Below, piece by piece: positions 1,281-23,081 of a stretch of 24,027 nt of DNA (the first letter of the stretch is position 1; every line of letters begins with the position of its first letter). A program made the position numbers and the translations under genes. This DNA comes from a virus, in the IMG/VR virus record IMGVR_UViG_3300005613_000413, positions 1 to 24,027 of that record; one strand, written 5' to 3'. The notes beneath the pieces were generated by a model. It saw nothing but the letters and a program-made list of their open reading frames with translations. It had not been told where the DNA came from and ran no database searches.

Positions 1281-3331
1281 TATTCTACCACCGGATTATT
1301 TGCATTAATAATTCTCGCTTGTTTGCTGAAACCTTCTTCAACGCCTTTTTTAACTTTGTCCTCGATATCTCGAACCGTTTCCTCAGATGTCACTCCTTCT
1401 GCGTTCACTGTTATATTATTCTCTACCTTAAAATCCTGCTTTGTATGAAATATTTTACCTCCCGCAATGCCTCCGGGTATTCCTGCAAATTGCGGAACCA
1501 TTTGCGGTTGTCTGGCTGCTCCTTCAAAAAACCTTGCCAGCTTAAAAAACAATCCTTCAGTGATTTGTTTTTCTGCTGCCGCTCTACCCTCTGGCGTTTC
1601 CAGACTTTTAACAGTATATTCACGCAAGCCTTTGAAAAATAATGGTGCTCCCTTTTTCTTTATTTTTTCTCTTTCCTTTTCGGTTATCTGTTCTCCAGGA
1701 ATAAAAAGCTCCCCTGCTCCCTGTATTATTTTTTTTACTCCATCAATAGCTTTTTCTAAATTAAGTGAAAATGCACCCTCTATGAATTCAATTAAACCAT
1801 TAAGTATGAATTTCATGCCTGTGACCATATTGGCCATATCGTTTTTTACATGATCCATAGTAAGGCCAAGAGCATCCTGCCACTCTCTAAAATCTTTTAT
1901 GTTTAATTCCAATATTGCTTTAAGGTCTTTTCTCATCCCATCAAAGCCGCCAACAAGCCTGCCTATTAATGAATCTCCGCCCTTAGTCCAGACAAGGAAA
2001 TCCTCAACCAATAAAGCAATTAAGGCTATGATTGCGAGTATTATTGCAGGTATTACCAACAATGAGGCATTGAACGCTCCTGCGGCACCGGCGGCACCAA
2101 AAAAAGCCGCCTTTAATGTGACCATTGCTCCCGCAACGAAAGCCATAGTTTTTACCATTACAGACAGTCCGAGAAGGACAGGCCCAATGGCTGCCAATAA
2201 TACCGCAAGAGTCACTATTATATTAAGCATTTCAGGATTCAATTCAGCCAATTTATCTACGAGCTTGCCTGCTGCCGTGACCATTTTTCCAAGAACTTTC
2301 GCAAAGCCTGATTTTGCAATCTTTATAAAAAGGACATCAAGTTTACTTGCTAATTTTCTCATAGCTCCGCCGAGCCCGGACAGTCTGGCTGATGCCATTC
2401 TTGCCGCTGCTCCTACATCTGTCCTCATTATTTCTGCCATTTCACGAAGCCTTGGAGTTCCTGTAGCCAAAGCCGCTTGAACCGCTGCGAGTGCTCTTGT
2501 TCCAAACAAATGGGTCAAGTCATTAGTGGTGACCTGTGCTTTTTCAAGCCTTTCCAGTATATCAATAAAAGGAAGCATTTCACCAGTAGAATCCTTAACT
2601 CGTACCCCCAATCGTTCTAAAGTCCGAGTTACTTCTGGTGTGGGCTTTGCAAGGTTCAGCAATGCCATACGAAGGCTGGTTCCTGCCCTTGTCGCTGTAA
2701 TCTGTCTCTTTGCAAAAGATCCCAAAATTGCGAGAGTTTCTTCCAAGTTATTATTAAAGCCCGCAGCGACACCGCCTGCAAAGCTTAAAGCCTGAGATAA
2801 TTCAGGAAGATTTGTCGCCGCTAAATTTGAAGCCACTGTCAATGAATCTGCCACTCTTGTCGCTTCCTCTGCTGTAAGACTGAATGAATTTATCGCTCCC
2901 GATGCGACCCTTGCAGTTTCTGCCATATCCATATTAGACGCAGCGGCCAAATCCATCACACCCGGAGTCGCTCCATATATTTTATTGACGTTGAATCCTG
3001 CGGCTCCTAAGTTATTCATGGCATCAGCCGTTTCTGCTGCCGTAAAGACAGAATTTTTCGCCAGCTCCAAAGCTCTATTGCTTAATAGTTTAAATTCATC
3101 TGCCGTTAATTTAATTCTGGATTGTAAAAACAGCATTGCATCTTCAAAGCCTGTGAAAGCCGTTGTTATTCTTTTGCCTAACAATACCAAAGGAAGCGTG
3201 AAAGCTGCGGACATTTTAAGTCCTGCGGTCTGCATCTGTTGTCCTACGCGATTCATTCTTGATTGTGCTTTTCTCAGAGCAGATTCGTCAATCCTGAATC
3301 CGATTTTATTCACTAATTCTCTAACGACCAT
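1280..3331 (-). CDS. Tail tape measure protein
   Basis: Encodes 683 aa, the longest protein here. It has an N-terminal helical region (LRKAQSRMNRVGQQMQTAG), then a TP901-type core with a GFEDAM motif and repeated Ala-rich helices (FTAAETADAMNNLGAAGF, LPELSQALSFAGGVAAGFN). A very hydrophobic stretch at about residues 370-460 could span membrane two or more times. Tape measures set tail length and can reach the host membrane during DNA ejection. At 683 aa it is short for the class, so a modest tail is expected. Its start overlaps the stop of the frameshifted chaperone by 11 nt, the usual chaperone to tape measure arrangement. Confidence 0.9.
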   Translation of the reverse strand: MVVRELVNKIGFRIDESALRKAQSRMNRVGQQMQTAGLKMSAAFTLPLVLLGKRITTAFTGFEDAMLFLQSRIKLTADEFKLLSNRALELAKNSVFTAAETADAMNNLGAAGFNVNKIYGATPGVMDLAAASNMDMAETARVASGAINSFSLTAEEATRVADSLTVASNLAATNLPELSQALSFAGGVAAGFNNNLEETLAILGSFAKRQITATRAGTSLRMALLNLAKPTPEVTRTLERLGVRVKDSTGEMLPFIDILERLEKAQVTTNDLTHLFGTRALAAVQAALATGTPRLREMAEIMRTDVGAAARMASARLSGLGGAMRKLASKLDVLFIKIAKSGFAKVLGKMVTAAGKLVDKLAELNPEMLNIIVTLAVLLAAIGPVLLGLSVMVKTMAFVAGAMVTLKAAFFGAAGAAGAFNASLLVIPAIILAIIALIALLVEDFLVWTKGGDSLIGRLVGGFDGMRKDLKAILELNIKDFREWQDALGLTMDHVKNDMANMVTGMKFILNGLIEFIEGAFSLNLEKAIDGVKKIIQGAGELFIPGEQITEKEREKIKKKGAPLFFKGLREYTVKSLETPEGRAAAEKQITEGLFFKLARFFEGAARQPQMVPQFAGIPGGIAGGKIFHTKQDFKVENNITVNAEGVTSEETVRDIEDKVKKGVEEGFSKQARIINANNPVVE

Positions 3332-4469: not shown

Positions 4470-5774
4470 TTATACTGATATCGTTCCCCGAATTATTGTT
4501 TTATGTATTGCGCCAGCAAGCTCGGCCGTGAATGTCACATCCGGTAGAGTTCTCGCGGCCTTGTCTACACTCGAAACATCCTTAACAAGAGGAACAGTCA
4601 CAGTAGGAGCAGGATCATCTTTTAATCCACCTCTGTCAATACCTTGCTGCAATTGGGCTTTGATTTCTCCCTCTATAATTGCCACTCCCTTATCCGTGAA
4701 AGGTATCTTAGGCAGGTTTGTCATGCGGCTGAATATCCTTTCAGTCATTCTCGCCTGCAACCAATCAATGAAAACAACAACATCAACAAATTGCGGTTTG
4801 GCCATTGTACCGTTTTCTATGATGTTCACTCCGCCGACTTCTGTGTATGTATTGCAATTCTTAGCAAGCGCATTTGCCTTTTCTGTGTCATTCAATACAT
4901 CGACTGTCACGCTTGAAATGGTTTTGAATTTAAGCGTGTATGATCCCGGATCATTAGGCATTATCTGACCCATTGAACCAGCATCCAGATATTCTGTGGC
5001 TGCCGTTGCACTGTAAAAGCAAGCCGTTCTTTCGTATGCCAAATCTTTAAGCTGTTTCGGAAGGGAACCGGTATCTGCTGCCAATGTGGTATTAATGATT
5101 TCACTATCAGATGAAGCCGTGAAGAAAATCTTTTTCTTAGTTTCAATCCATGCAGCAAGGAGAAGAACCGTAGCCTCTGTCCTGTCTGTAAGAATCACTC
5201 CATAAAAAGCATCGGATATATTGACAATCGCATCCATAGTATCGCCAATGGCTTCTGTAACCGTGAAAGCTGGAACAGTGATATAATCACCTACCTTTAA
5301 GCTCCATGCGGTACCTGCCACGTCATGCGATACAGTGAAGTTTCCCCCTGATCCATCTGTCGCATCAACAGGTTCAGAGCCTGCATCTATCGCAGCCACA
5401 AGACCGGTTGCAATGCTTGTCACGGTTGCTCCTACACCAGATGTATATGTGAGCTTTGTACCATTAACATATACATCATAGTCAGTTGAATCATGGGCTT
5501 CTGAAACGGTTATGGTTACAGGATCATCGACTTTGCGTCTTCCGACTGCCACCTGTGTTGGTTGTGGACTCTGTGCGAAAAGGTCGCTTGCTGCTATGTA
5601 TTCCTTGTCAGTAGATTCAAAATCATCAGCCATAGCAGTTAGGGAAGAATAAAATTTGATCCTCTCATTGAATCTCTTATGAGAACCAACGATTAAACAG
5701 GTACCAAATCCCGCTCTGGAGACCGTTCCGGCCTGCAGGGAGATTTGGACATCAACGATATCAGTGATAGGCAT
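4470..5774 (-). CDS. Tail sheath protein (DUF3383-like)
   Basis: Encodes 434 aa with a strong AAGGAGG site. The N-terminus (MPITDIVDVQISLQAGTVSR, then FGTCLIVGSH) and the segment YIAASDLFAQSPQPTQVAVGRR are typical of DUF3383 sheath proteins. The C-terminal half has NDPGSYTLKFKTISSVTVD and FVDVVVFIDWLQARMTERIF, matching the conserved assembly domain. Around residues 84-175 there is a Thr/Val/Gly-rich beta insertion (YDVYVNGTKLTY onward) that looks like a separate module and resembles one in the cement protein at 9356-10126. The sheath contracts to drive the tube into the host. Confidence 0.9.
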   Translation of the reverse strand: MPITDIVDVQISLQAGTVSRAGFGTCLIVGSHKRFNERIKFYSSLTAMADDFESTDKEYIAASDLFAQSPQPTQVAVGRRKVDDPVTITVSEAHDSTDYDVYVNGTKLTYTSGVGATVTSIATGLVAAIDAGSEPVDATDGSGGNFTVSHDVAGTAWSLKVGDYITVPAFTVTEAIGDTMDAIVNISDAFYGVILTDRTEATVLLLAAWIETKKKIFFTASSDSEIINTTLAADTGSLPKQLKDLAYERTACFYSATAATEYLDAGSMGQIMPNDPGSYTLKFKTISSVTVDVLNDTEKANALAKNCNTYTEVGGVNIIENGTMAKPQFVDVVVFIDWLQARMTERIFSRMTNLPKIPFTDKGVAIIEGEIKAQLQQGIDRGGLKDDPAPTVTVPLVKDVSSVDKAARTLPDVTFTAELAGAIHKTIIRGTISV

Positions 5775-5793
5775 ATATGCCTCCTTTTTTTGG

Positions 5794-6333
5794 TTATGTT
5801 GCGTCTATTGTGAATGTATCTGATAGAACAGTTTGTTCATTTTGTTCGTATGTTGCCTCCATATCTTTAACGATTGCAATATAGCCCGGTTCGTCTGTGC
5901 TTTCCTGTGCGATACGGAAAAGCAAATCCATTCCCCGGCGTTCTTGATATTCTGTATCTTGCAAAAAATTCAAATTCTGTATAGGAAAAGAATCTACAAA
6001 GACAATCCCGCCATCTCGCAATGTTTGCAGAACACTATCTTTATTTAATGCCATGCGTATATTTTCAAATGCTGTCAATGCCTGATACGGAGTAGTGCCG
6101 TCATGGGTCATGCTTAAAGTAAATTCCCTATTGCCAGTTATTTTATTATCTCCAGACCCATCCGGACGACCTATATAATCATGCCCAATTTTAACAAAAG
6201 GTAGCATCGCAATCGTTATATAGGGCTTTGCTGGTTGCGGAGCGTTCTGATCTGTCCATATAGTCATGACGTTCGGGCTGTTATCATATACAAAAGCTCT
6301 CAAGCTATTTTGCAATGTCTGGAAATTTATCAC
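5794..6333 (-). CDS. Neck terminator / tail terminator protein
   Basis: Encodes 179 aa directly upstream of the sheath gene. It shows the pattern FQTLQNSLRAFVYD, then IWTDQNAPQPAKPYITIAM and REFTLSMTHDGTTPYQAL, seen in the LIC_12616-type neck terminator family, which joins the completed tail to the head. The central DGGIVFVDSFPIQNLNFL and the ERRGMDLLFRIAQES strand are also typical. It overlaps the coiled-coil gene by 4 nt (ATGA). The assignment combines pattern recognition with position. Confidence 0.75.
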   Translation of the reverse strand: MINFQTLQNSLRAFVYDNSPNVMTIWTDQNAPQPAKPYITIAMLPFVKIGHDYIGRPDGSGDNKITGNREFTLSMTHDGTTPYQALTAFENIRMALNKDSVLQTLRDGGIVFVDSFPIQNLNFLQDTEYQERRGMDLLFRIAQESTDEPGYIAIVKDMEATYEQNEQTVLSDTFTIDAT

Positions 6334-15320: not shown

Positions 15321-16868
15321 TCATATACTTGTCAATAAATCATAATCAACACCACTTATCCGGGCAAAGCACATGACAAGGGCATCTGCTCTATTTGGTG
15401 ACCGGATTCCTTTTTTCTTTAATACTTCCTTACTTTCCATAATGATTTTTCCGTTGGGTTTGAATTTATATGTCTGCTGTGAGAGTTCCATTATAAGTTG
15501 GCCATCGTTTGGTATGCTTATTAATTCATAAGGCTTATATCTACGAATATTATTTCTGTTCTCATATGTTTTTCTGAATCGTTCTCTAAGCTCCCACCAT
15601 AATTCAGCTTTTAAATTCATAAACATTTCGCTGTTTGGTTTGCCCGGAGCAAAATTCCCCGGATGCACCTTACCACCTGAATTAATGCCTCTTGCTATTA
15701 CTGCCGATTTACCTTCCCGCTCTGCAATAGACCAGAATTCAGCCTTTACGCCTGCTCCAACTCCTACATTATCATAATTGCATAGCTTCACACCTCGCTG
15801 CTTTAATAGCCCGTATGCCCTGCGTGTCGTTTGTGCTGTATTACCGAGCTTCCAAGCGTCTACATGCTCAACCACTACTCCATGCCTGTCTATAAGGCAG
15901 TTCTCATCACCTCCCTCGTCTGCGACATCCAGAGCAGATATTTTCATTCCGCTTTTCGGCAGATTGTAATTGACTGCCGCTGCAACCCATTCGTGAGGTA
16001 TTACAACCCTTTCCATGGTTGCGGCCGGATTAATGTCAATTTCTTGTGCGATAATGACTGGATCGAAAGAATATTCTTCGCATTTTTTCTTGTACCATGC
16101 ATCATCTTTCCGGGGATCGTCCTTCCAGTGAAAAGTAAATACTGGTATTTTTCCGGACATACGTTTCTGGTAAAATGGATTGCCTGTGCCATTGTATGTG
16201 GACACATCAACCTGGACATTGGTATTCATAGATAATGCTGCTTCTACTTTCACAGGTCTTTCATAAAATGCAGATTCATCTTTGAAATATATCGACTTAC
16301 GGCCTCCACGTCCCATCTGGTCGCCGCCCTCTCCTGTAATTGTTGAGCCATTTTGCGGATTCAATATCTTCAAATACGGGCAATGATCCTCAAGATTAAA
16401 ATCCAAAGGCAGGAATTCTCGTGGCAGATATTTTATGAACCACCTTATTTTCTCAAATATGGTATCGGGATCCCCGAGTCTATCCATCTTGTCTACTTTG
16501 CTTGACCCAAAGCCTATCGCTCTGCCCGGATGGAATAGCCAAAGCCAAACAGCAAAAGCAATGCACAGCCATGTCAAACCCATATCCCTTGATTTCTCAA
16601 CAAGGCAATTTTGCTGATCCTCCATGTTTTTTTTGAGCCAGTTTATATATTCAACTTGCCTGGGAAATAGAATAAAAGGAAGGAGAGCCTTTTTCCGGCG
16701 TGGATCGTATGTAATGCCCCAATCGTTTATGAAGTCAACAGGCTTGTCCTTATAATGCCAGACAAGCGTATTGTAATACTTATTATCTTCCCTGATGCGA
16801 TTAAGCCTATCATTTCTTAATCGCCATATTGAGTTGTAATCCGGATTTTTCCAGTTTTTTATCAGCAT
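15321..16868 (-). CDS. Terminase large subunit
   Basis: Encodes 515 aa. The ATPase half has a Walker A-like CLVEKSRDMGLTW (residues 88-100), a GSSK motif at 121-124 and Walker B SIYFKDESAF (192-201, with Asp-Glu). The RuvC-like nuclease half shows ALDVADEGGDENCLID (312-326), YDNVGVGAGV (365-374) and SPNRADALVM (490-499), giving candidate metal ligands D314, D366 and D495. This divergent KSRDMG P-loop is seen in Mu gp28-like terminases. The enzyme translocates and cuts DNA. It starts 7 nt after the acyl carrier protein gene. Confidence 0.93.
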   Translation of the reverse strand: MLIKNWKNPDYNSIWRLRNDRLNRIREDNKYYNTLVWHYKDKPVDFINDWGITYDPRRKKALLPFILFPRQVEYINWLKKNMEDQQNCLVEKSRDMGLTWLCIAFAVWLWLFHPGRAIGFGSSKVDKMDRLGDPDTIFEKIRWFIKYLPREFLPLDFNLEDHCPYLKILNPQNGSTITGEGGDQMGRGGRKSIYFKDESAFYERPVKVEAALSMNTNVQVDVSTYNGTGNPFYQKRMSGKIPVFTFHWKDDPRKDDAWYKKKCEEYSFDPVIIAQEIDINPAATMERVVIPHEWVAAAVNYNLPKSGMKISALDVADEGGDENCLIDRHGVVVEHVDAWKLGNTAQTTRRAYGLLKQRGVKLCNYDNVGVGAGVKAEFWSIAEREGKSAVIARGINSGGKVHPGNFAPGKPNSEMFMNLKAELWWELRERFRKTYENRNNIRRYKPYELISIPNDGQLIMELSQQTYKFKPNGKIIMESKEVLKKKGIRSPNRADALVMCFARISGVDYDLLTSI

Positions 16869-16875
16869 TCACAAT

Positions 16876-17109
16876 CTAAACCTTGCTTTCAACTAACTTA
16901 ATGGCCTTTTCAACTGTATCAATCATTATAGTCTCTTCATCATTTACAGTGATATTAAACTCATCTTCAATAGCCATGAGAAGTTCTATCATATCAAGCG
17001 AATCCGCTCCAAGATCATTTTCGAAACGATCTGATAATTTAATGATTGTTTTATCAATACAAAGATAATTTGCAATTATTGTGATTAATTTTTTAGGTAT
17101 ATCAATCAT
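16876..17109 (-). CDS. Acyl carrier protein
   Basis: Encodes 77 aa, the normal size for a bacterial acyl carrier protein. Residues 24-45 contain DRFENDLGADSLDMIELLMA with the DSL motif; Ser37 is the expected 4'-phosphopantetheine site. The flanking helix II/III pattern (AIEDEFNITVNDEETIMIDT, then VEKAIKLV) is complete, so the protein looks functional. It lies between small and large terminase genes with gaps of 6 and 7 nt and lacks a clear Shine-Dalgarno, suggesting translational coupling. I see no acyltransferase or ketosynthase in the window. It could use host enzymes or serve a modification pathway. Confidence 0.88.
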   Translation of the reverse strand: MIDIPKKLITIIANYLCIDKTIIKLSDRFENDLGADSLDMIELLMAIEDEFNITVNDEETIMIDTVEKAIKLVESKV

Positions 17110-17115
17110 TATTTT

Positions 17116-17628
17116 TTACGGTTCTAAGTTTGCCAGATATTCAGCCTGTGCATCATCCGGGCTCATAGGAACGCCGAACTGCAAGCCGACATTTTTAACA
17201 TCCATTTTATGCTTTTCAACCCAGCCCTCCATGACCTGAAACCATAATTTTCTATCTGCTGGATGACCTCGCATCGCATGAGAAAATAATGCCATTATAA
17301 CTTTATCAGTCAAAAGGCGAAAGCTGCTTTCCAGAGGTTTGAACTGTAATTTCTTGACATGCTTCCTTACCGTTTCATAAGAAAAACCTGTTTCCTGCAT
17401 GAGCATTTTATATGTTGGTTTCTTTTTTCTATCAATCATTAATTTGTAATATGCTCCAGATATCACTTCATGATTAAACTCCCAATCCTTACGCATTTTT
17501 TCATCATTTAAATCAAGAACCTGTACCGCTTTGGCTTTAGGTTTCTTATTTACATACTTTTGAATACTTTTTTTTGATGCCTTTTTCCTATGTACGTTCT
17601 TCTTTTTGGGACGTGTTAATTTTTTCAT
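17116..17628 (-). CDS. Terminase small subunit (probable)
   Basis: Encodes 170 aa. The N-terminal 35 residues are a very basic tail (KKKNVHRKKASKKSIQKYVN). Residues 70-95 look like a helix-turn-helix (PTYKMLMQETGFSYETVRKH), and the later HAMRGHPADRKLWFQVMEGW is the kind of segment found in small terminase and related phage HTH proteins. Position just before the large terminase (with the acyl carrier protein inserted) supports DNA recognition for packaging. It could instead be a DNA-binding regulator of the operon. Confidence 0.65.
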   Translation of the reverse strand: MKKLTRPKKKNVHRKKASKKSIQKYVNKKPKAKAVQVLDLNDEKMRKDWEFNHEVISGAYYKLMIDRKKKPTYKMLMQETGFSYETVRKHVKKLQFKPLESSFRLLTDKVIMALFSHAMRGHPADRKLWFQVMEGWVEKHKMDVKNVGLQFGVPMSPDDAQAEYLANLEP

Positions 17629-17643
17629 ATAACTATCCGCCTG

Positions 17644-17925
17644 TTATAATTTCTGCTCTATTATATCCTTCATTGTTTTTACTTCATCATTTCTTCGTTT
17701 TATTGTATTGATAATATTAGTACGCATTTTGCTTTTCACATCTGATATGAATAAATTCACTTCTGGATTATATTTAACTTTTATCATTCCAACATAAAAA
17801 TCGTCTATATTAAATTTGCATATTATATCAGGAAATTTTGATATATTAAAATTAATAATAAAAGGAAAAATGATAGCAATTTTTCTCATCCATTCTTGTA
17901 TTGTGATATCATGTTGTGTATTCAT
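17644..17925 (-). CDS. Unknown 93-aa protein in the modification cassette
   Basis: Starts at the ATG at 17925 (MNTQHDITIQEW), preceded by AAAAGGTG; a GTG nine bases earlier would overlap the glycosyltransferase. It lies 1 nt after that gene and is as AT-rich. The sequence has a Trp-containing helix, a hydrophobic Ile/Phe-rich stretch (IAIIFPFIINFNISKFPDII), beta-like FYVGMIKVKYNPEVNLFISD, and a basic C-terminal helix (RTNIINTIKRRNDEVKTM). No family is recognised. Tight coupling suggests a partner or small subunit of the upstream enzymes. Confidence 0.6.
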   Translation of the reverse strand: MNTQHDITIQEWMRKIAIIFPFIINFNISKFPDIICKFNIDDFYVGMIKVKYNPEVNLFISDVKSKMRTNIINTIKRRNDEVKTMKDIIEQKL

Positions 17926-17926
17926 T

Positions 17927-18709
17927 TTAAACACCTTTTATCGGAATATTCACTCTGCCATTTAATAAATCTGTTTTCTTTAAAGGTGGTATTCTGTATT
18001 TAATTATATTTTTTCCCCATTTTCGCATAATAGCTTCACAATAATTTATTTCAATTTTTTGCGTTCTACTCGATACACTACCACCAGAATTATCGCCATG
18101 CTTACAATCATAAGCATATTTATTTATCCGTAATATTTTATTGTATCTATTCAACATTTGCAGGCTGAAATCATAATCTTGCTTCGTTCCTGTTCTTTCG
18201 TCATAATTCAAATCATGGTTTAAATGAGCTTGGAAAGGTCCCAAAATCGGTTGGGTTAATGAAAAAGGTTTATATTGCTGATAATTTCTTCTGTCTGTGT
18301 TTACATTAATCCCCCAAAATTTGCAACCAAATTGATAAGCAAGGTTAAATCCATTTATTATAAAATTATCTGCCTGCTCCGATGTTAAGGTTATTTTCTC
18401 AGTTGCCTTATAATGCTTATTTCTTTTTACCTTATACATTCCCTCAGTCATAACTATAGCCTTGACATCATCATCTAGCATCAATAAAGGCCTTTTAATA
18501 TTGTTCATAATCCATATTCGTTTTTTAACACACAGCCCGTCATTTTTATCCGGTATAATTATCAATCTGTTTTTATCATAACAAGCCAAATATTCATTTT
18601 TCTGGGATTCGGGTATTACTATTTTAGCGGTTGGAAAATAATTATAACCAGCTACCCGGCCAGCTCTTTTATAACTCAATATGCAAATATTAACAAAATT
18701 CTGCGTCAT
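17927..18709 (-). CDS. Glycosyltransferase, TET-associated (TAGT)-like
   Basis: Encodes 260 aa and overlaps the radical SAM gene by 20 nt. The N-terminus has ICILSYKRAGRV (8-19), AKIVIPESQKNEYLACY, then IIPDKNDGLCVKKRIWIMNN, and a catalytic-looking LLMLDDDV (75-82, DxD-type metal/nucleotide-sugar site). Later come ILGPFQAHLNHDLNYDERTG, KQDYDFSLQML (176-186) and HGDNSGGSVSS (204-214). This order matches the TET-associated glycosyltransferases that decorate modified bases in phage DNA. A glycan transferase acting on another polymer is the alternative. No TET/JBP gene lies in the window, so the acceptor is unknown. Confidence 0.75.
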   Translation of the reverse strand: MTQNFVNICILSYKRAGRVAGYNYFPTAKIVIPESQKNEYLACYDKNRLIIIPDKNDGLCVKKRIWIMNNIKRPLLMLDDDVKAIVMTEGMYKVKRNKHYKATEKITLTSEQADNFIINGFNLAYQFGCKFWGINVNTDRRNYQQYKPFSLTQPILGPFQAHLNHDLNYDERTGTKQDYDFSLQMLNRYNKILRINKYAYDCKHGDNSGGSVSSRTQKIEINYCEAIMRKWGKNIIKYRIPPLKKTDLLNGRVNIPIKGV

Positions 18710-19619
18710 CTATAATCCTATAATTTTTTATGTAATCATTCAACCCGCTTAACCTGCATGGACTCGGGCAATTTTTTTTGATTTTATTAAAATCCATTTT
18801 TTCCTTTTTGTTTAATATATCAATATCAAAAATGCTTCCGACCACTTTTTCCCACATTGAACAGCAATAGGATACCGTTCCATCATGTCTTATTGCTATT
18901 GTCGTCCAGTTAGCATAACATTGTTCATATTTATTAAATAAATAATTCCATTTGAAACTTACGTTTAATTTTCTATCCTCCAAATCTGCTAATTTTTTTA
19001 GCTCTTTTTTTATTTCCTGCAATTCATTTTTTTTATAATGATTAGTCACTGAATCAATTGGCCTAATACTTATGCAATCAATATCATATTTTTTAAAATA
19101 ATCATAAAATTCAGACGCCATGCCGGGATATTGAGCCAGACATTGCAATACAATTTTGGTTTTTAAATTGGCCTTTATTAACTTTTTTAAATTAAAAACA
19201 ACCTTATCAAAATAATCAGCTCCCTTTATTGTCTTATATTGCTTTTTATCCACAGAATCTATATTTATTTTTAACCAAGACGCGCCTCGAGGCTCTATAT
19301 ATTTCACCAAATTACTATTTATACCATAATTGATTTTTTCATTATGTAGGCGGCCAATAATCTTATAGAAATCAGGATTTAAGCCCGGTTCTCCCTGTCC
19401 AGAAAAAACCAAGCCCCTAACCTGCAATTTTATCAATCTTTTCAATACTAAATCAAATAATATATATGCCATATAATCATTATCTTTTATGCCATTCCGA
19501 TGAAAACAATATGAGCACTTCAAATTACATTTTCGCGTTATTGATAATTGAGCAGTTATCGGCTTTCTGTTAAATATAATCCGCTCTTGATATATTTTTA
19601 ATTTGCTCTCAGTTATCAT
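18690..19619 (-). CDS. Radical SAM enzyme
   Basis: Encodes 309 aa; start overlaps the ParB-like stop as ATGA. It carries the radical SAM cluster motif RKCNLKCSYCF (C31, C35, C38), the GGE-like SAM-binding stretch FSGQGEP (72-78) and the barrel pattern YGINSNL, WLKINIDSVD. The C-terminal Cys set (C234, C252, C253, C284, C288, C309; SYCCSMWE, NCPSPCRLSG) suggests a SPASM-like auxiliary cluster region. Such enzymes occur in phage DNA-modification operons with ParB and glycosyltransferase genes. The substrate cannot be read from sequence; peptide or base are both possible. Confidence 0.85.
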   Translation of the reverse strand: MITESKLKIYQERIIFNRKPITAQLSITRKCNLKCSYCFHRNGIKDNDYMAYILFDLVLKRLIKLQVRGLVFSGQGEPGLNPDFYKIIGRLHNEKINYGINSNLVKYIEPRGASWLKINIDSVDKKQYKTIKGADYFDKVVFNLKKLIKANLKTKIVLQCLAQYPGMASEFYDYFKKYDIDCISIRPIDSVTNHYKKNELQEIKKELKKLADLEDRKLNVSFKWNYLFNKYEQCYANWTTIAIRHDGTVSYCCSMWEKVVGSIFDIDILNKKEKMDFNKIKKNCPSPCRLSGLNDYIKNYRIIDDAEFC

Positions 19620-20236
19620 TTTATTTTTTCAATCCAATCCTTGCCCTTTATTACTCTGCCGACTCCAACAGGTTGCCCTTTCCTTGGGATTAAATCCTTA
19701 ACCTTTTTCAATCCAAATTTATCTAAGGCCACCTGCCAATCGAATGAATTATCAAAATATAATACGATATAATTATGCTCAAGTAATAACTCTTGTGAAA
19801 ATTCAACTTCGGGATTTTCACTTGTTCCGCCTCCGCTTTCTCCCAACAATTCCTTTTTATCAAAACCCATATTTAACAATTCGTCAACTTCAAATAAATT
19901 CCCTAAAATATCATAATCGAATTCGCCTGTATTTTTATTGCTGCGGACATTATACTCCTTAACTTCTGAAGGAGTAAGCTTTCTATTAGGTATCCTTACA
20001 TCAATCGTTTCGTTTCCCCTGCCTATAAGCTGCATTATCTTTAATCTTTGGTGGCCTGCAATGATGGTCTTATCTGTATTTACAGCAGGAATCTCTACAA
20101 GGTTGAATTTTTCAAGGCTTTTCCTTATTTCCTCCGCTTGCTTATTAGTAAGAATTCGAGGGTTATTAGGATATGGCATGAGGTCATTGATTTTGCGCTT
20201 TTCTGTTTTCCATGATAATTTATTTTTTTTCTGCAT
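19616..20236 (-). CDS. ParB/sulfiredoxin-fold protein
   Basis: Encodes 206 aa with AGGAG just before the start. Residues 14-110 are a ParB-type domain: KINDLMPYPNNPRILTNKQA, ITAGH-like core IIAGHQRLKIM (58-68) and NVRSNKNTGEFDYDIL. The C-terminal part (NYIVLYFDNSFDWQVALDKF, then PVGVGRVIKGKDWI) is an added domain I have seen in phage ParB proteins next to DNA methylases or modification genes. These are not plasmid partition proteins; the domain can bind nucleotides or nick DNA. It likely starts the cassette that continues with the radical SAM gene. Confidence 0.82.
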   Translation of the reverse strand: MQKKNKLSWKTEKRKINDLMPYPNNPRILTNKQAEEIRKSLEKFNLVEIPAVNTDKTIIAGHQRLKIMQLIGRGNETIDVRIPNRKLTPSEVKEYNVRSNKNTGEFDYDILGNLFEVDELLNMGFDKKELLGESGGGTSENPEVEFSQELLLEHNYIVLYFDNSFDWQVALDKFGLKKVKDLIPRKGQPVGVGRVIKGKDWIEKIK

Positions 20237-21993: not shown

Positions 21994-22710
21994 TTATTCT
22001 CCATAAATCCACCAACGAAACATCTCTTTTCCATCTTTCCAACGAAGAACCGACTTTTTACCTTGCTTTATTCTGTTTTCATATAGCTTGCAAAAAGCCT
22101 TTTCAAAAGCTCTTGCATATTTAGGATATCGAATTAACTCTTTTATTCTCATTTTTTTGCTTGCCTGTGGACAAAAAAGACACCCAAGCCTTTTAAAGCC
22201 TTCATCATATAGCTTGCAATAAGGCAGACTGTATTTACCTATAAAATACCAGATATCCGCATCAGTCCAATCAATTATCGGATGGACAAATTTTTTGCCT
22301 TTTCCTTTATAACAGCTTTCAACCATTTGTCTTTTTTCTCTTTGTCTGCTTTCATCCCATCGAATACCAACAAGACAAGTTCTGCCATTACCCGATTTCT
22401 CCTTTAATATTTCACAGCACCAACGAGATTGACGTAATGGAAAGCCTTTTGTTTGTAGTTTTTTTAAGAAAGGCTCTTGCCATGCTCTTTCAAACTTAAC
22501 GTCTGGATGTTCTTGCCTTATAAATTTAACCAGCTCAGGCGGATCGATAGTAGTATTATTATAATGCGAATCATATTTAACATCAGCCATATTTGCCAAT
22601 TCTTTTAGCACACAAGAATCCTTACCACCTGAAAAGCATAGATAATATCCTTCTGGCGGCTGGAAAGCCTGTAGCCTGTCTAATGTTTTATAGAGCTTTT
22701 CTTTATTCAT
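21994..22710 (-). CDS. PAPS-reductase-like PP-loop enzyme
   Basis: Encodes 238 aa from the ATG at 22710 (MNKEKLYKTLDRL), which has AAAGGAGAA directly before it; an earlier start at 22809 would overlap the membrane gene. The PP-loop SGGKDS is at 27-32, the Cys pair RWCCE at 96-100, GIRWDESRQR at 115-124, and GCLFCP at 176-181. The CC and CxxC can ligate a 4Fe-4S cluster, as in CysH- and DndC-like enzymes. It adenylates or moves sulfur; in phages it may serve nucleic acid modification or sulfur capture. Flanked by 33-nt repeats. Confidence 0.85.
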   Translation of the reverse strand: MNKEKLYKTLDRLQAFQPPEGYYLCFSGGKDSCVLKELANMADVKYDSHYNNTTIDPPELVKFIRQEHPDVKFERAWQEPFLKKLQTKGFPLRQSRWCCEILKEKSGNGRTCLVGIRWDESRQREKRQMVESCYKGKGKKFVHPIIDWTDADIWYFIGKYSLPYCKLYDEGFKRLGCLFCPQASKKMRIKELIRYPKYARAFEKAFCKLYENRIKQGKKSVLRWKDGKEMFRWWIYGE

Positions 22711-22740
22711 TTCTCCTTTTTCGGTTAGGGTTGTTAATAT
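22708..22740 (-). repeat. 33-nt direct repeat, upstream copy
   Basis: Spans the end of the membrane protein gene, the ribosome binding site and the ATG of the PAPS-reductase-like gene. Its partner is at 21961-21993. In both copies the preceding gene's stop codon lies at or next to the far end, then TAACC, GA, AAAGGAGAA and ATG. Confidence 0.6.
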
Positions 22741-23081
22741 TTTATTAATCTTATAATATCTCTTAATGCATAATATTCCGGATTGAATATTTGTGTTATG
22801 GTAAACCATACAAGAATAAAAGAAAAAAATGAAATAATACCCAACATCATAGTAGTAAATATATTTATGTTAAATTCATCCCAATCTTTTACTTTCCTTG
22901 CGCTAATGTAACATATTATACCTGATAATATAAAAACTACTAATGGAACAACCCCCTCTATTATCTTCTGCTTTACAACTATGGGATACACATAATCAGC
23001 TGATTGCCCAATACCTTTGCCTAATGCTATAATAGCATTTTCTACTTTTTCAACCAAAACTGTTACTGTTGAATCTTGCAT
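22734..23081 (-). CDS. Two-helix membrane protein
   Basis: Encodes 115 aa with AAAGGA 7 nt before the ATG. The first 38 residues are soluble (EKVENAIIALGKGIGQSADY), then two membrane helices at about 42-60 (EGVVPLVVFILSGIICYIS) and 74-98 (IFTTMMLGIISFFSFILVWF), with a charged loop between. Size and layout resemble phage membrane proteins annotated as holin-like, but no endolysin is visible nearby, so I leave the function open. Confidence 0.65.
   Translation of the reverse strand: MQDSTVTVLVEKVENAIIALGKGIGQSADYVYPIVVKQKIIEGVVPLVVFILSGIICYISARKVKDWDEFNINIFTTMMLGIISFFSFILVWFTITQIFNPEYYALRDIIRLIKY

Follow-up and report, generated by a model that had tools for sequence, protein, structure and literature searches.

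The gene studied here lies on an IMG/VR virus fragment of 24,027 bases, analysed as a whole and called the window below. Its minus strand bears a structural module of the KPP10/E217/Pam3 type, from a phage with a contractile tail. This module codes for a DUF3383 (sheath-like) protein, KPP10_Orf10, an E217 gp24/Pam3 gp6 cement protein, a Pam3 plug, a Mu F-like protein and a portal, together with a weak match to the E217 collar. Ahead of these genes, and pointing in the same direction, stand seven genes that include an acyl carrier protein (ACP) and the terminase large subunit (TerL):

19616 to 20236, minus strand: ParB-like protein (phrog_620 "ParB-like partition protein", E = 1.1e-21)
18690 to 19619, minus strand: radical SAM/SPASM protein (PF04055, E = 7.8e-15; PF13186, E = 1.2e-5)
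17927 to 18709, minus strand: TAGT-family glycosyltransferase (PF20691, E = 1.6e-10; phrog_842, E = 1.3e-19)
17644 to 17934, minus strand: 96-aa protein (no Pfam, PHROG or NCBIfam match)
17116 to 17628, minus strand: probable terminase small subunit (TerS), 170 aa (assigned from position, a weak helix-turn-helix (HTH) and a short C-terminal motif)
16876 to 17109, minus strand: ACP, 77 aa, Ser37 in GADSLD (PF00550, TIGR00517, phrog_5934, AlphaFold2, Foldseek)
15321 to 16868, minus strand: TerL, 515 aa (phrog_2, E = 3.7e-26; 38 relatives in IMG/VR)

The ACP gene is tightly packed between its neighbors. Six nucleotides separate the stop codon of the upstream gene (17116–17628) from the ACP start codon, and seven separate the ACP stop codon from the TerL start codon, all on the same strand; an earlier sequence-only reading had given these gaps correctly. 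No minus-strand terminator-like site was found between ACP and TerL, and inspection by eye revealed no strong Shine-Dalgarno sequence at these junctions. Since the gaps are short and no terminator-like site intervenes, ACP and TerL are likely co-transcribed, and the suggestion that the ACP is made along with the packaging proteins is probably right. With 29% GC and 24% GC at third codon positions (GC3), the ACP gene differs from TerL (41.5% and 39.5%) and from the probable TerS gene (36.5% and 35.7%), and it resembles the radical SAM gene (29% and 28%) and the 96-aa gene (23% and 20%). The low GC3 is consistent with a later insertion, although 77 codons make composition a weak clue. Among the window proteins scanned, we found no phosphopantetheinyl transferase, acyltransferase, ketosynthase or thioesterase domain and no fab gene; the window itself is a fragment.

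Two further features of the window deserve mention. The AT-rich 96-aa gene (17644–17934, GC 23%) is an orphan with the glycosyltransferase on one side and the probable TerS on the other, and a PAPS-reductase-family protein is encoded at 21994–22809. A relative of the latter (about 40% identity) is split into two open reading frames at 3241–4076 of contig L207, about 1.2 kb upstream of a ParB-glycosyltransferase-radical SAM block.

The ACP assignment itself is practically certain, and it extends to the type II fatty-acid-synthesis (FAS) kind. The open reading frame starts with ATG, is intact and codes for 77 residues with Ser37 in a GADSLD motif. It matches PF00550 above the Pfam gathering cut-off (E = 5.5e-12), the equivalog TIGR00517 "acyl_carrier" with 73.3 bits (cut-off 70.45), NF002148 with a score of 73.9 (cut-off 71) and phrog_5934 "acyl carrier protein" with E = 1e-15. 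These matches lie far beyond what chance could produce. The AlphaFold2 model (mean pLDDT 88.3) contains four helices (residues 4–16, 37–51, 57–62 and 66–76) with Ser37 as the first residue of helix II. The top Foldseek matches to this model are FAS-type ACPs with TM scores of about 0.9, and the structural neighbors include ACP complexes with AcpS, FabD and FabZ. The claim of a complete 77-residue carrier with the expected motif and helix pattern was borne out.

The surface of helix II is the face of AcpP that is read by AcpS and the FAS enzymes. On this helix, the window ACP retains D36-S37-L38-D39, E42, M45, E48 and F51. An alignment of the window protein with 21 viral and bacterial ACPs shows DLGADS, D39 and E48 to be invariant, and the window ACP keeps them all. 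Its identity to the other aligned sequences is 36–47%; it shares 38% with E. coli AcpP and no more than about 48% with any bacterial ACP found. A pattern search of IMG/VR returned no close relative, and a poorly resolved tree of 89 ACPs (78 columns) placed neither the window ACP nor its donor lineage. All sequence and fold features of AcpP that could be assessed here were present, including the equivalog score, the DSL serine at helix II and the four-helix fold. Compared with AcpP (TIGR00517; PDB 1l0h, 2x2b), the window protein is alike in length, reactive serine, fold, predicted pI (4.2) and equivalog-level score. It differs in that it is phage-encoded, AT-rich, only 38% identical to the E. 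coli protein and free of adjoining fab genes. By sequence and model, the protein is a conventional, intact ACP and not a remnant. It probably works, and phages have acquired genes of its kind repeatedly.

The earlier statement that this ACP sits between the two terminase genes holds firmly on one side, where TerL is identified by its PHROG match and its relatives. On the other side, gene 17116–17628 matches no PHROG, no Pfam family above cut-off, and no protein in IMG/VR or phage records. The TerS proteins that accompany the TerL relatives are themselves recognized by PHROGs, and the window protein shares with them a 13-column C-terminal motif alone (hhalign E = 0.012, probability 3.7%). We consider this gene a likely TerS because of its position, its Lys-rich N-terminus and the weak HTH.

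We then asked whether the arrangement is conserved. The 38 IMG/VR records with TerL relatives (31–55% identity) contain no PF00550 match. Neither do the 13 records with relatives of the glycosyltransferase (55–63% identity) or the 10 records with relatives of the radical SAM protein, six of which are clear relatives (32–34% identity). Two further records, MT835491 and Javan291, also lack an ACP. The overall count is zero of 63, in records that are mostly fragments and not close relatives, so that each absence is soft. Conserved ACP-TerL synteny was therefore rejected for the TerL relatives, where the proposed survey for the same gene order found not one example, and membership of the ACP in the glycosyltransferase/radical SAM block was rejected as well. 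Absence from close relatives with identical packaging, together with a lack of phosphopantetheinylation, had been named as a point against the earlier proposal. Half of this was observed: the ACP is missing from relatives with homologous packaging genes, but the nearest TerL proteins are only 52–55% identical to that of the window. In three records with TerL relatives (L002, L003 and L007), terS is followed directly by terL. In two others (L005 and L006), other small genes lie between a recognized TerS and TerL, which indicates that this spot accepts insertions. Since the ACP is absent from the records related by TerL, by glycosyltransferase and by radical SAM protein, it is a conserved part neither of packaging nor of the ParB/glycosyltransferase/radical SAM block, and the window ACP is likely a lineage-specific insertion.

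The position of an ACP between TerS and TerL does recur. In the unrelated contig L146 (IMGVR_UViG_3300049491_000490), TerS (phrog_51, E = 7e-31), a small open reading frame, the ACP, three genes and TerL (phrog_3717, E = 4e-39) follow each other, the ACP and both terminase genes being on the same strand. Unlike in the window, TerL of this contig falls first in phrog_3717, and the small reading frame and three additional genes also lie between the terminase genes; its 12-kb locus contains no relative of the window glycosyltransferase or radical SAM protein. In contig L188, an ACP and an HTH gene precede TerL (phrog_38, E = 1.5e-101). Among 31 larger contigs with both ACP and TerL, the distance from the ACP to a TerL downstream of it is at most 2.5 kb in three (0.7–1.4 expected) and at most 6.5 kb in eight (1.9–3.7 expected). 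Both distances were set after looking at the data, and the enrichment is weak, a hint only. TerL-like matches 1.5–2 kb downstream of ACPs in L136, L143, L163 and similar contigs were dropped; they are weak phrog_2 matches (E = 1e-6 to 1e-10) to what by eye are PhoH-like ATPases.

Phage ACPs had been called uncommon. This view does not hold: a strict-motif scan of IMG/VR found 385 contigs that encode an ACP, which is a lower bound, and a second scan found at least 457. Some of these contigs are probably host DNA, since fab genes adjoin the ACP in L132 and L196. A plsX or fabG gene just ahead of the ACP is the arrangement of bacterial chromosomes. In L118 the gene immediately ahead of the ACP is plsX (4953–6222), and in L196 it is fabG (2–953). 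Some records filed as viral are thus probably of host origin or flanked by host sequence. Annotated ACPs occur in Kuttervirus, Vibrio, Erythrobacter, Prochlorococcus, Xanthomonas and Brevundimonas phages. Their neighbors vary, from a DNA methyltransferase and RusA in an Erythrobacter phage to gyrase genes in a Xanthomonas phage and cpeT and baseplate genes in P-HM1. Phage ACPs are dispersed over many phage types, and they form no single clade in a tree of poor resolution. One account lists them among the auxiliary metabolic genes and says that their function "remains unclear" (PMC5463345); similar annotations are found elsewhere (PMC10152775, PMC8224337). The PHROG 5934 ACPs of Erythrobacter phages vB_EliS-R6L and ZS04 (PMC5463345) resemble the window ACP in standing alone as auxiliary metabolic genes of unclear function. 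In those phages the ACP adjoins RusA and methyltransferase genes, whereas in the window it adjoins the terminase. The window ACP is a new member of this known kind of phage ACP, and its place beside the terminase is unusual.

What might such a protein do? The most likely of several roles, to which we assign a probability of about one half, is that an ACP of cellular origin joins the host acyl-ACP pool as an auxiliary gene. According to this proposal, the phage lineage would have acquired a cellular FAS-type ACP and inserted it as a "moron" between the probable TerS and TerL. The protein would be made late, from the terminase transcript. Host AcpS would add 4'-phosphopantetheine to Ser37, which we infer because the window showed no phosphopantetheinyl transferase. 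The resulting holo-ACP could then serve as a second carrier in host acyl-ACP traffic (FabD, FabF, FabG, acyltransferases), so that acyl-ACP might be raised or diverted during assembly and before lysis. Charging by the host and entry into the host pool make the simplest reading because the recognition helix is intact and the window contains no dedicated partner. The equivalog-level FAS match, the preserved helix II surface, the AcpP-like model, the absence from relatives of the neighbors, the low GC3 and the scatter of phage ACPs over many phage types with different neighbors all speak for this role. Against it, a phage phosphopantetheinyl transferase or acyl enzyme could lie outside the fragmentary window, and the recurrence of ACPs ahead of TerL in L146 and L188 could mean that position matters.

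The same intact recognition helix would also suit a decoy. Such a protein would compete with the host's own AcpP for AcpS and phosphopantetheine, for FAS enzymes or for ACP-binding regulators, and so throttle host lipid synthesis or ACP-dependent signaling instead of aiding it. A stand-alone gene without acyl enzymes fits this idea, as does a place in a late operon that may provide high expression. Sequence cannot separate a decoy from a working carrier, but the reactive serine, superfluous in a protein that only binds, is kept, and we regard this role as doubtful. A passenger captured recently and now without function, or an assembly chimera, might explain why the collections searched hold no close ACP relative, why the composition is unlike that of TerL and why the exact arrangement occurs in one genome only. 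Yet the reading frame is intact, the invariant residues persist despite at most about 48% identity to the bacterial ACPs found, the operon gaps measure 6–7 nt and phage genes flank the insertion on either side, which makes this explanation improbable.

Roles tied to the neighboring genes are weakened by the absence of an ACP in relatives. One such role, the supply of substrate to the ParB/TAGT/radical SAM block for modification of phage DNA or another target before packaging, is suggested by the shared operon, by the AT-rich composition common to the ACP, radical SAM and glycosyltransferase genes, and by the name of the TAGT family, which stems from the link of its members to TET DNA-modifying enzymes (Pfam PF20691). 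This idea, also raised in the sequence-only reading, is unlikely: the block does without an ACP in the 13 glycosyltransferase-related and 10 radical SAM-related records, in MT835491 and in Javan291, and in the window the ACP stands apart from the block, on the far side of the probable TerS. The tight coupling to TerL, the gene orders TerS-ACP-TerL in L146 and ACP-HTH-TerL in L188, and the eight of 31 contigs mentioned above could point to an accessory role in packaging through binding of TerL or TerS, or to a gene placed to tune TerL translation. However, the 38 related terminases manage without an ACP, the terminases near ACPs fall in different PHROGs, and the enrichment depends on thresholds picked afterwards; a packaging role of either sort, including the binding to the terminase once proposed, is improbable. 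We hold it equally improbable that a host-charged ACP hands on an acyl group, or a related one, to the ParB/TAGT/radical SAM enzymes or to the terminase and so couples acyl metabolism to phage DNA modification or packaging.

Mitochondrial ACP works with NFS1-ISD11. By analogy, the window ACP might help a cysteine desulfurase to supply Fe-S clusters to the radical SAM enzyme. The Foldseek neighbors include the ACP of an NFS1-ISD11 complex, and by eye ACPs follow IscU-like and IscA-like genes in the marine contig L131 and a NifU-like gene in L127. However, these structural neighbors, being ACPs themselves, match by their fold, which is uninformative about a partner, the records with radical SAM relatives lack an ACP, and ISD11 is not known from bacteria. 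This is the least probable of the roles considered. The gene families next to these ACPs (L131, 2983–3911; L127, 2276–2817) were judged by eye. Viral contigs were also compared for an association of ACP and radical SAM genes: 9 of 49 scored above the cut-off and none of 28 controls did, but many of the matches come from large contigs that have several genes of this type.

The block next to the ACP is a recurrent feature in its own right. A ParB-like gene and a TAGT-like glycosyltransferase gene, accompanied in some cases by a radical SAM/SPASM gene, stand directly upstream of unrelated kinds of terminase in many phages. Examples are the window (20236–15321) and the contigs L123 (6374–10884), L207 (5324–8283), L210 (6147–7915), L211 (26–3793), L126 (4405–7497) and L040 to L052. 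It is possible that this block is a modification module tied to packaging, and it is possibly of greater interest than the ACP.

The ACP is missing from the tested records with relatives of its neighbors, which shows how little a gene's place beside the terminase reveals about its function. A stand-alone ACP in a late operon, with its serine intact, makes the role testable by asking whether the protein is charged, which acyl chains it carries and whether the phage needs it.
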